From: Microcyclospora pomicola
Lineage: Eukaryota; Ascomycota; Dothideomycetes; Capnodiales
Assembly (NCBI GenBank): GCA_002786065.1
Contig: NHNY01000009.1
Span: forward strand, 186,001 to 250,000
Reading direction: 5' to 3'
DNA length: 64,000 nt
Position numbers and translations under genes: made by a program. The notes under the pieces are model-generated. The model was given only the letters and a program-made list of their open reading frames with translations. It was not told the origin of the DNA and ran no database searches. Positions within the stretch are counted from its first letter, which is position 1, and every line of letters begins with the position of its first letter. Positions 9,432 through 14,398 of this stretch are shown here, in pieces.

Positions 9432-11561
9432 ATGCTCCACCTACAACGAGCTACCGCCAGCTCTGCTCGACTAGCTAAGATACCTTCGCGCGCTGCAACC
9501 AGTCTACAAGCTAGCAATGTCCTTCGAGCTTCTACCAGATCGCAGACACGGACATACAGCCTGGTAAAACAAGATGGGTTTCCTCACGCGCGTACCAATG
9601 GTCTCCACGGCACGCGCCTCCATCAACACCGCTACGCATCTACAGCGCCTGTAGCGCCGAAGAAGCCATCGCGCGTGGCTCGCATCCTGTACCGCTCCTT
9701 TGCGACTCTCGGTCTCACCGTCGCTGTCGGCGGTGGACTGATCCTTGCCTTCTTCATCTACGACGCAACCACATATCGCGCCGAACCCGAGGTGTCCGAC
9801 ATTCCCGTCTCCGAGTATGCCCTCCATCCACGCCGGGGCGGGCCTAAGAATCTGCCCATCGCCGAATTCTTCGTCGACGATGACGACGCCAATATGAAGG
9901 GGCAAAAACACAAGCCCAAATTGGTCATTCTGGGAACAGGCTGGGGAAGCGTGGCATTGCTCAAACAGCTGTATCAGGGAGAATACCATGTCACCGTTGT
10001 CTCCCCGTCCAACCATTTCCTCTTCACACCGATGCTTCCTTCTGCGACGGTAGGCACACTTGAGCTCCGCAGTTTGGTAGAGCCGGTGCGCAGAATCGTC
10101 AAGGCCGTCGGTGGACACTTTCTCAAAGCATCAGCAAGAGACGTGGAGTTCAGCGAGAAGCTTGTCGAGGTAGAGTCCGAGGGACCAGACGGCAAGAAGG
10201 AGAGTTTCTACCTCCCATACGATAAGCTTGTGATTGGCGTCGGATCGATCACCAACCCACACGGCGTGCAGGGCCTGGAACACTGCCATTTCCTGAAGGA
10301 CATCAGCGACGCGCGCAAGATTCGCAACTCAGTTATTAGCAATCTGGAGAATGCCTGTCTGCCAACCACCTCGGACGAAGAACGACGAAGACTACTCTCG
10401 TTCGTAGTCTCAGGGGGTGGGCCAACGGGAGTGGAGTTCGCGGCTGAGCTTTACGATATGCTCAACGAAGATTTGTGCAAGTTTTATCCACGCCTTTTGC
10501 GAAACGAGATCTCGGTCCATGTCATTCAATCTCGTGGCCATATTCTCAACACATACGACGAGGCTCTGAGCAAATATGCCGAGGAGCATCTAGCGCATGA
10601 CCAGGTCGATGTCCTGACCAACTGCAGAGTCAAAGAAGTACGCGAAGATCGCATTCTGTTTACTGAGAAAGACGGCCAAGGTAATACTGTCACCAAGGAG
10701 CTACCCATGGGTTTCTGTCTCTGGTCCACTGGTGTTTCCCAAACCGAGTTCTGCCAAACGCTCGCCGCAAAGCTGGGCGACCATCAAAACAATCAGCACG
10801 CTCTCGAGACCGACACACATCTTCGCCTCGTAGGCGCGCCTTTGGGTGACGTCTACGCGATTGGCGATTGCAGCACAGTCCAGAACAATGTATCAGACCA
10901 CATCGTCTCGTTCCTCCGCACCCTGGCATGGGAGAAAGGCAAGGATCCAGAGCAGATGAAGATCCACTACAGCGATTGGCGCGGAGTTGCGAAGCAAGTT
11001 CAGGCCCGCTTCCCGCAAGCAAAGGATCATCTTCGTAGACTGGACAAATTGTTTGAGACCTACGACAAAGACAAGAGTGGAACGCTTGATTTCGGCGAGC
11101 TGAACGAACTGCTGAAACAGATCGACAACAAGCTCACTTCGCTGCCGGCCACCGCGCAACGTGCCAACCAGCAGGGTGTGTACTTGGGCCACAAATTCAA
11201 CAAGCTTGCTCGCGCGGAGCCCGGGATGAAGATCAACGAGGTGTTTGACGGCGATGTCGACCAAGCCGTGTACAAGCCGTTCAACTACAAGCATATGGGA
11301 AGTCTGGCATATGTCGGCAACGCTGCCATCTTTGACTTTAACGGCCTCAGCTTCGGCGGCGGACTGCTCGCCGTGTATCTTTGGCGGAGTGTGTACTTTG
11401 CGCAGAGCGTCAGTCTGCGGACTAGAGTATTGCTGGCGATGGACTGGAGCAAGCGGGCGCTGTTCGGACGTGGTAAGTTTTCCCTCTCTCGCGAGAGATT
11501 GATGTTTGTTGTATGAGACAAATACGCTAACGGTGGCCCTACAGATATGATGAACTTCTAA
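9432..11561 (+). CDS. External alternative NADH dehydrogenase (NDH-2) with EF-hand
   Basis: Exons 9432-11472 and 11545-11561, 685 residues. Type II enzymes oxidise cytosolic NAD(P)H and reduce ubiquinone at the outer face of the inner mitochondrial membrane without proton pumping. The N-terminus is Arg/Ser/Ala-rich (mitochondrial presequence). A membrane helix sits at about 87-110. Two Rossmann motifs follow: GTGWGS near 168 (FAD) and GGGPTGVE near 328 (NADH). VYAIGDC is the FAD-ribityl block. An intact EF-hand loop (DKDKSGTLDFGE, about 545-556) suggests Ca2+ control. A 72-bp GT-AG intron (11473-11544) precedes a 17-nt final exon encoding the last residues MMNF. An upstream in-frame TTG exists, but 9432 is the first ATG in good context. 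Confidence 0.94.
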
Positions 11562-11985
11562 GTCAGCCACTTATGCACATGTGTTTGATTGCGTGAACGA
11601 TAGATAGACTCTTGTACAGCATGGGCGTTTTGGCGCCTTTATATGGAGTATTTAGCTTTCAAACATAGATAGTACGTGAGACATGAGTTGCTGTCTCTGT
11701 AGTATGTCTACTGAGCACCTACTTCACTTCATAATCAAAGCTCAATTGGCATGGCACTCTGAGTGTCTTGGCCATTGTCATTCATTGATGGTATCCGTCA
11801 TGACTTATGATTACCTTATATGCACGGATCCTGTACCCTCGTAACCAGAATCTGCATTCATTGAGCAGAGCACGTGACCGTGACACGAGATCTCGACGCT
11901 TGACGCCGGCCCGCACCACGCTAGTAGCTGTCGACGAGATACTTAAGATTCTTCCTCCCTCGCTTTCTCCCTCTTTTCTCTTCAT
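11562..11985. other. Intergenic region upstream of the U3 gene
   Basis: Contains the 3' UTR of the NADH dehydrogenase gene and the probable pol II promoter of U3. It has a CACGTG box at 11871-11876, a possible AT-rich initiation element at 11941-11950, and a strong CT-rich run at 11950-11982. No coding sequence was recognised. Confidence 0.5.
11871..11876. promoter_or_regulatory. CACGTG box upstream of the U3 snoRNA gene
   Basis: CACGTG followed by AC (RCACGTGAC context, close to the Cbf1 consensus), about 110 bp upstream of the proposed U3 5' end. Function is inferred. Confidence 0.35.
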
Positions 11986-12269
11986 GTCGACTTTGTGAGC
12001 CTTCCCGACCCCCCATACCCTCGAAGACCTACCAACTAACAATGCCTCCCTCCACAGACTTCATAGAATCATTTCTATAGTAAACGTCCTCATCTGTGTT
12101 CTTTACAAAAGCCACAGACTCCAACCTGGCTGATGAGTCGATCCGCGCTGCCCCAGAGTGATGCCTTTCTTTCGCTCGCCTCGTTCCGAGCTGGCTATGA
12201 TCTCGTCTGTCTTGAGTGCCTGGCTTCGGCCGGCTCTTGGCGGTGGGTGGTGTCGGATGTCTGACAGGT
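11986..12269 (+). ncRNA. U3: U3 box C/D snoRNA gene containing a spliceosomal intron
   Basis: U3 is the RNA guide of the SSU processome and is needed for 18S rRNA cleavage in the nucleolus. The proposed RNA starts GTCGACTTT (11986-11994). A 63-bp intron follows (11995-12057) with donor GTGAGC, branch CTAAC at about 12036-12040 and acceptor CACAG. The second exon opens ACTTCATAGAATCATTTC, then TATAG, nearly identical to yeast U3 box A sequence. Further landmarks are in order: a GCTGATGAGTC block (C', 12129-12139), CCCCAGAGTGA (box B, about 12151-12161), CTATGATCT (box C, about 12194-12202), and TGTCTGACAGG (box D/3' end, about 12259-12269). The mature length is about 221 nt. Yeast U3 genes also carry an intron near the 5' end. 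A 28-codon reading frame across the splice is coincidental. The exact ends are approximate. Confidence 0.9.
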
Positions 12270-12841
12270 TCTTTTCTCTTTTATTTTCATCAATTGTCCT
12301 TTGGCTTCTGCCGGGGCTTGGAGAAGATAATATATGTGGTGTTTCTTGGCAGCGGCCTGACTGGAGATGGACTTGCATGATATCTGCAGGAGGGTCCTTC
12401 TTGGGAATGATGTCGTCTACTTTTGATAATGATGGAGCACTCCGGCGAGCTGTGTTTCATCTGTGGATGCATATGAGCATGTATGTACCTTATGTATGTA
12501 CTGCTCGATTTCAGCGATCTCCTCGTTCAGAAGCTACTTTATGCAATCTCATCTAGCCTCGTACACCCTGATGTTACAACGTCTTCTATCTTGACAACTA
12601 CGTATTTGAGGGCTTCCGCATTCATGTAAACTCATCGCCGTGACTCAATCTGATTCATAACGAGGCACGCGACCTGGTAGCAGCGGTACGAAATTTCTTC
12701 GCCGATCGCTTAGCTAAACATTCATGGATGACATATCGATAAGAACTGTTTGCCGCTCCAACTTTCTTGTGCTGGAGGGGCAGAGGCACTCTCACGGTCA
12801 TCTTCTATCTTTTACTTCGCAACGTCCTCACAGCAGCAGCC
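12270..12841. other. Intergenic region between U3 and NMD3
   Basis: T-rich sequence follows the U3 3' end (12270-12300), and the NMD3 promoter/leader is at the far side. Nothing else was recognised. Confidence 0.55.
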
Positions 12842-14398
12842 ATGTCGATGGATATAGATACGATCTCGCTGCCGCAGCAGGCTCAAAACACTGCTGCCAC
12901 AATCTTGTGCTACAACTGCGGCGCAGCTATCGACGGAACTCAAGCAGCGGGCGCGCTCTGTAATGATTGCTTGAAGCTCACCGTTGACATCACGGAGAGT
13001 ATTGAAAGAGATGGCATACTTTTGATGTGTAGAGATTGCGACAGATGGCTCTCACCGCCTGCATCCTGGGTGGTTGCCGCACCCGAGTCAAGAGAACTTC
13101 TTGCGCTTTGCCTGCGCAAACTTCGAGGACTGAACAAGAGTCGGATCATAGATGCGTCCTTCATCTGGACAGAGCCCCATTCGCGACGAATCAAAGTCAA
13201 GATCACAGTCCAGCAAGAAGCCTTTCAGGGGACCATCCTTCAACAAACCTTCGACGTGGAGTTCGTCCAGAACTACAAACAATGCCCCGACTGCCAGAAA
13301 TCATATACCCACAACACATGGCGGGCGAGCGTACAGGTACGGCAGAAGGTGCCTCACAAGCGAACTTTCTTGTACCTTGAACAGCTCATCCTGAAGCAAG
13401 GCGTGCACAAGGAGACGATCAACATCAGGGAGGTGCAGAACGGGATCGATTTCTACTTCGCACAACGGAATCATGCTGAGAAGTTTGTTGACTTCCTGAA
13501 CTCGGCGACACCAGCCCGGACGAAGAAGAGTCAGGAGTTGATCTCGACGGATACCCACACATCGACCGCGTCGTACAAATTCACATACTCGTGCGAGTTG
13601 GTGCCGATATGTAAGGACGATTTGGTTGCGATCCCTCTCAAGCTAGCGAAGAGCATTGGAAACATCTCGCCCTTGTGTCTCTGCTATCGGATAGGCTCTG
13701 CTGTCAACCTACTCGATCCGAACACGCTTCAGGTGGCTGATCTTAGCACTCCGATCTACTGGCGAGCACCGTTCGCTCCGCTTGCTGATGTCAAGGACCT
13801 GACGGAATTCATCGTTATGGATATTGAGCCGATTGGTCCTCAGAAGGGCCGCTTTCTTCTTGCCGAAGCGACTGTGGTTCGTGCATCAGATTTGGGTGTG
13901 AACGACACGACGTACCTTGTCCGCACACACTTGGGGAGTGTGCTGCACGCGGGCGACAGCGTTATGGGCTACCTCCTCGCCGGCACGCAATTCAACAGCG
14001 AGAATTTCGACGCGATTGAGGAGTCGAAGCAGTACTCCGGCACTATCCCTGACGTGATACTGGTGAAGAAGCACTACCCAGCACGGAAGAAGAACAAGAC
14101 TCGCAAGTGGAAGCTGCAACGCATGGCACGCGAGGAGTCGGAGATGAAGCCGCGGAAACAAGATGCCAATCGTGACGAGATTGATTACGAGCAATTCTTG
14201 CAAGACCTGGAAGCCGACCCGGAGTTGCGAGCAGGCATGAACATGTACAAGAACAACGATGCTCGGGCGAAGGCGGATGTCGTGAGCGAGATGGACACGG
14301 ATGATGATGAGGATGATGGGTTGGAGATACCCATGGATCAGCTTATTGACGAGATGGAGGATATGGGTATGGATGAGGACGATTCTGATGACGAATAG
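12842..14398 (+). CDS. NMD3: 60S ribosomal export protein NMD3
   Basis: An intronless gene of 518 residues. NMD3 is the adaptor that links the nascent 60S subunit to the exportin Crm1 for nuclear export and is released in the cytoplasm. The N-terminal zinc-binding part has repeated Cys pairs: CYNCG near 23, CNDC, CRDC and CPDC. The RKVPHKRTFLYLEQ-type and NGIDFYF blocks of the NMD3 core follow. The C-terminal ~100 residues are basic (HYPARKKNKTRKW) then very acidic. Leu/Met-rich segments (MDQLIDEMEDMGM) resemble an export-signal region. The ATG at 12842 matches the usual N-terminus; an in-frame extension upstream has no ATG. The length matches fungal NMD3 (~520). Confidence 0.95.
   Translation: MSMDIDTISLPQQAQNTAATILCYNCGAAIDGTQAAGALCNDCLKLTVDITESIERDGILLMCRDCDRWLSPPASWVVAAPESRELLALCLRKLRGLNKSRIIDASFIWTEPHSRRIKVKITVQQEAFQGTILQQTFDVEFVQNYKQCPDCQKSYTHNTWRASVQVRQKVPHKRTFLYLEQLILKQGVHKETINIREVQNGIDFYFAQRNHAEKFVDFLNSATPARTKKSQELISTDTHTSTASYKFTYSCELVPICKDDLVAIPLKLAKSIGNISPLCLCYRIGSAVNLLDPNTLQVADLSTPIYWRAPFAPLADVKDLTEFIVMDIEPIGPQKGRFLLAEATVVRASDLGVNDTTYLVRTHLGSVLHAGDSVMGYLLAGTQFNSENFDAIEESKQYSGTIPDVILVKKHYPARKKNKTRKWKLQRMAREESEMKPRKQDANRDEIDYEQFLQDLEADPELRAGMNMYKNNDARAKADVVSEMDTDDDEDDGLEIPMDQLIDEMEDMGMDEDDSDDE

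Follow-up and report, generated by a model that had tools for sequence, protein, structure and literature searches.

Identification of a U3 snoRNA gene and its surroundings

We analysed a window of 64,000 nucleotides from the ca. 23.4 Mb assembly of a dothideomycete fungus. When the complete window was scanned with the Rfam covariance models, a single match exceeded its curated cut-off. This match, to the fungal U3 family (Fungi_U3, RF01846), extends over positions 12054-12269 of the + strand, covers model positions 1-274 and scores 136 bits (cut-off, 95; E = 7.9e-34). A first-pass annotation of this DNA had claimed a U3 snoRNA gene here and had named a search with the fungal U3 model as the way to check it; the score, above threshold, bears out the claim. 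The order that it gave for the U3 boxes, A, C', B, C and D, is also correct on the + strand, both by the sequence coordinates and by the RF01846 alignment (Table 1). In this alignment there is no interruption of the part of the gene with boxes C', B, C and D and, therefore, no second intron is indicated. Using the same model as a query against the complete assembly (23,372,697 bases in 58 contigs), scoring covered 24 of the 279 first-look candidates and one place was listed, namely this gene, so that the number of U3 copies is a lower bound. Judged from its sequence, the locus is a real U3 snoRNA gene, ordinary for its fungal group.

Table 1. Features of the U3 gene, in window coordinates.
Feature	Position	Strand	Basis
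U3 exon 1, GTCGACTTT, outer 5' arm of M1	11986-11994	+	sequence; 5' end inferred from family
Intron, 63 nt, presumed U2-type, GTGAGC...ACTAAC...CACAG	11995-12057	+	motifs, M1 restoration
Donor GTGAGC	11995-12000	+	sequence
Branch ACTAAC	12035-12040	+	sequence
Acceptor CACAG	12053-12057	+	sequence
U3 exon 2: remainder of M1, then box A, hinge, M2 and C'/B/C/D	12058-12269	+	RF01846; 3' end is that of the model
Box A core AATCATTTC, A at 12067 against G in the Rfam consensus	12067-12075	+	RF01846 alignment
Box C' CTGATGAG	12130-12137	+	RF01846 alignment
Box B AGAGTGA	12155-12161	+	RF01846 alignment
Box C TATGATCT	12196-12203	+	RF01846 alignment
Box D region GTCTGACA	12259-12266	+	RF01846 alignment

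Matches to the Rfam families mir-1277, MS2 and RAGATH-32 appeared elsewhere in the window, all under their respective cut-offs, and were judged to be due to chance; likewise, a scan with bacterial settings did not report any tRNA in the window. As to the promoter, we found no motifs of the TATA and Homol D type in the interval 11700-12000, which contains two GTGAC cores, at 11874 and 11880. We also thought of transcription by RNA polymerase III, because 11986-12269 is free of TTTT and T runs appear from 12272; by a rough estimate, a sequence of such length and composition would fairly often be without TTTT by chance, and we make no claim on this basis.

The U3 gene is preceded, from position 9432, by a gene for an external NADH dehydrogenase with an EF-hand, which we take to be NDE1-like. 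By eye, the 3' end of this gene shows an apparent short intron (GTAAGT...GCTAAC...CTACAG, at about 11473-11544 of the + strand) followed by a tiny last exon, and hence the end of the listed open reading frame is probably not the true C-terminus of the product. Downstream of U3, on the + strand, lies NMD3 (12842-14398), coding for the 60S export adaptor and identified by its Pfam NMD3, OB and SH3 domains. U3 is thus situated directly upstream of NMD3, in the same direction and at about 570 bp (11986-14398, + strand), and both are ribosome-biogenesis genes.

Of 3,758 matches to the NMD3 product we considered the best 120, in which the closest named fungi are Baudoinia (82% identity) and Zymoseptoria, Acrodontium, Meristemomyces and Lecanosticta (81% each); by protein identity, these matches place the fungus in or near the Mycosphaerellales. 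The same 120 matches include a protein labelled as from Quercus suber (cork oak), which is 95% identical over 98%; the other organism names among them are presumably all fungal. Very probably, the cork oak record is a contaminant from a close fungal relative of this fungus.

Removal of a probable 63-nt intron restores the U3 5' domain

The first-pass annotation had also proposed that the 5' region of the gene is split by a 63-bp segment with the splice motifs GTGAGC, CTAAC and CACAG, and we found all three in place. The segment shows what is expected of fungal U3 introns, with GT-AG borders, an RCTRAC branch site and a branch-acceptor distance within 6-36 nt, its end being located 17 nt past the branch motif. 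The donor, GTGAGC, has one mismatch, in its last base, with the published motif GTRWGT. Taken by themselves, the splice motifs are not significant: intron-like combinations are found in the window at about background density. On its + strand, we counted 48 with a loose pattern and 17 with a strict one, whereas 20 first-order Markov sequences gave means of 54.9 and 13.1, respectively.

Once joined at 11994/12058, the 5' end of the spliced RNA reads GTCGACTTTACTTCATAGAATCATTTCTATAGTAAACGTCCT. It aligns without gaps to Rfam consensus positions 1-42, sharing 36 identities and forming all 15 consensus pairs; in the same register, the contiguous genomic sequence retains only 28 of the 42 identities and 9 of the 15 pairs. 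Exon 1 corresponds to consensus positions 1-9 and continues into exon 2 without any gap, such that the intron is placed between positions 9 and 10 of the mature U3, within the 5' arm of stem M1. The GAC and TTT of exon 1 pair, respectively, with the GTC and AAA of the M1 3' arm, and this exact complement is a strong test of the intron. Left to align the unspliced gene by itself, the model opens a gap of five positions and loses five M1 pairs. Since it was applied to genomic DNA with the intron still in place, its match reaches 4 nt into the intron.

We also compared ten candidate introns (GT/GC...AG, of 40-200 nt, with donors from 11930 to 12049 and acceptors from 12030 to 12074), each folded after joining to the nine nucleotides that precede its donor. 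The intron of the first-pass annotation yielded the lowest folding energy for the 5' domain, -11.7 kcal/mol, followed by a candidate with -5.9 kcal/mol. Folding energy alone is nevertheless weak evidence, because 335 of the 7,485 nine-mers that precede a GT reach the same value, not necessarily with the M1 structure. For the whole gene, the predicted energy is slightly lower for the unspliced (284 nt, -76.3 kcal/mol) than for the spliced form (221 nt, -74.5 kcal/mol). The spliced RNA is predicted to form M1, with its 15 pairs, and a second hairpin, in agreement with the two-hairpin 5' domain (M1, M2) of fungal U3.

Membership of the U3 family, the splice motifs and the restoration of M1 are thus directly supported. 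What supports the intron is that the U3 5' domain is recovered exactly once it is taken out, and the covariance model and the M1 stem recovered on excision favour the spliceosomal intron originally proposed; on this sequence evidence, the 63-nt intron at 11995-12057 is very probably real. We are highly confident that the locus is a U3 gene from which a 63-nt intron is spliced out to give a standard fungal U3 of about 221 nt. As a side observation on another small RNA, the assembly contains at least one match to the U6 snRNA (L002; G000:C24:219910-220009, - strand; 47 of 1,251 candidates scored), where the whole U6 model is contained within 100 bases, indicating that, unlike U3, this U6 has no intron.

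A model for the expression of the gene

We infer that this U3 is transcribed, spliced in vivo and functional. Its primary transcript would begin at or near the GTCGAC at 11986, and the ordinary spliceosome would remove the intron, of pre-mRNA type. Stem M1, box A/A' and the hinge would then form in the joined RNA, together with the protein-binding core of boxes C', B, C and D, and the mature U3 would serve the small-subunit processome as its rRNA chaperone. The intron splits box A' (TACTT; motif TACTY in PMC5832005) after its first base, and also divides the 5' arm of M1 in two. As a consequence, the unspliced RNA would be devoid of both, and splicing would be needed to assemble the 5' domain.

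Box A and its pairing with 18S rRNA

The core of box A reads GAATCA, with an A at 12067, versus GGATCA in the Rfam consensus. This position of box A is expected to face the 18S rRNA, and yeast U3 also has GGATCA at the matching place. The description of the box A core as nearly identical to that of yeast consequently holds except for one base, A instead of the G of yeast. According to the structure line of RF01846, A12067 is opposite a U in M1 and forms an A-U pair in place of the consensus G-U, so the hairpin is not harmed by the change.

We estimated the pairing with 18S rRNA using an 18S 5' end of yeast type, from outside this genome. For the spliced 5' end we obtained -8.5 kcal/mol, a value equalled or bettered by 265 of 1,000 shuffled 18S sequences; the values were -4.3 kcal/mol for exon 2 alone, -7.8 for exon 2 plus the intron's own end, -12.6 for the first 30 nt of the unspliced RNA and -16.7 for yeast U3. 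Since the 18S sequence does not come from this genome, this duplex test is of limited value, and it does not support either the intron or a normal 18S pairing. In a further comparison, the exact box A stretch had no matches in viral and prokaryotic contigs, which is uninformative about its conservation. According to PMC5832005, variability is greater in box A than in A', and the box A motif printed there, GYATCW, fits neither GAATCA nor the Rfam GGATCA. It is very unlikely that A12067 entails an unusually weak 18S pairing, a compensating change in 18S or a greater reliance on box A', with splicing gating U3 more tightly than in yeast.

Alternative interpretations

The gene could be intronless, with the mature RNA starting near 12054-12058 and both the GTCGAC and the intron-like motifs occurring by chance. 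Indeed, the covariance match is full-length from 12054 without any upstream exon, and many GT..CTAAC..CAG patterns occur in the window. This start, however, would leave broken 6 of the 15 M1 pairs in the contiguous register, or five in the gapped alignment of the model, whereas precisely the 9 nt that are missing, ending in GACTTT, directly precede a good donor. Considering both strands of the window, and including this donor, hexamers that complete the six M1 pairs of exon 1 precede only 9 of the 7,485 GT sites, and GTCGAC occupies positions -9 to -4 at four of the 7,485. An intronless gene would also depart from the vast majority of the Pezizomycotina surveyed in PMC5832005, where 133 of the 138 fungal U3 introns fall in this same arm, and we consider it highly improbable.

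A U3 pseudogene, with the working copy absent from the assembly or from the scored candidates, is extremely improbable. That the assembly search listed a single place, with the copy number being at least one from the 24 of 279 candidates scored, and that box A departs once from the Rfam consensus would be compatible with it. Every box is present, however, the cut-off is exceeded by a wide margin, and a retro-copy should not carry the intron; besides, a single copy is ordinary, because nearly all of the fungal genomes in the survey contain at most three U3 copies (PMC5832005). The preferred reading is, then, that of a real U3 gene with one spliced intron.

The first-pass annotation had pointed out that such a gene is invisible to protein-based annotation, and we agree, this being an RNA gene; in fact, its first exon, of 9 nt, is missed even by the Rfam scan. 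The gene constitutes a useful annotation, of the kind that protein-based pipelines miss. Should the U3 loci of related fungi, of the Mycosphaerellales, contain a contiguous GTCGACTTTACTTCATAG, this would indicate that the U3 intron can be lost.

Comparison with known U3 introns

The U3 genes of Saccharomyces cerevisiae, SNR17A/B, have an intron that is longer than the one described here and that is placed a few bases further 3'. As in that yeast, the intron of this fungus would be excised by the pre-mRNA splicing machinery (Myslinski et al. 1990, cited in PMC5832005). The first-pass annotation mentioned U3 introns in budding yeasts only; the novelty of one in a filamentous ascomycete is not supported, because such introns are already known to be widespread in Pezizomycotina (PMC5832005).

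Canzler, Stadler and Hertel 2017 surveyed 147 fungal genomes for U3 (PMC5832005), and found introns in 138 of 310 U3 genes, from 78 genomes, distributed across Basidiomycota and the vast majority of the surveyed Pezizomycotina, Dothideomycetes included. Nearly all of these introns (133 of 138) are located in the 5' half of M1, they have a mean length of 92 nt, and 129 of the 138 contain RCTRAC; their motifs are GTRWGT, RCTRAC and YAG, with a mean branch-acceptor distance of 15 nt. Introns of dothideomycete U3 genes are alike in sequence and vary slightly in position, while direct experimental evidence for U3 introns is reported only for S. cerevisiae and Neurospora crassa. An intron-bearing U3 is, therefore, the already known, usual arrangement in such fungi (PMC5832005).

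As with the U3 genes of Pezizomycotina described there, the gene analysed here very probably contains one short GT-AG intron, located within the M1 5' arm and having RCTRAC and CAG, which at 63 nt is shorter than the reported mean of 92 nt. It differs from the gene of Baudoinia compniacensis, reported with two introns (PMC5832005), in that only one is indicated here, and from the RF01846 model in that one variable stretch comprises 13 bases versus 55. In all, this U3 adds one dothideomycete case to a described pattern, leaving the current view of U3 or of splicing unchanged.
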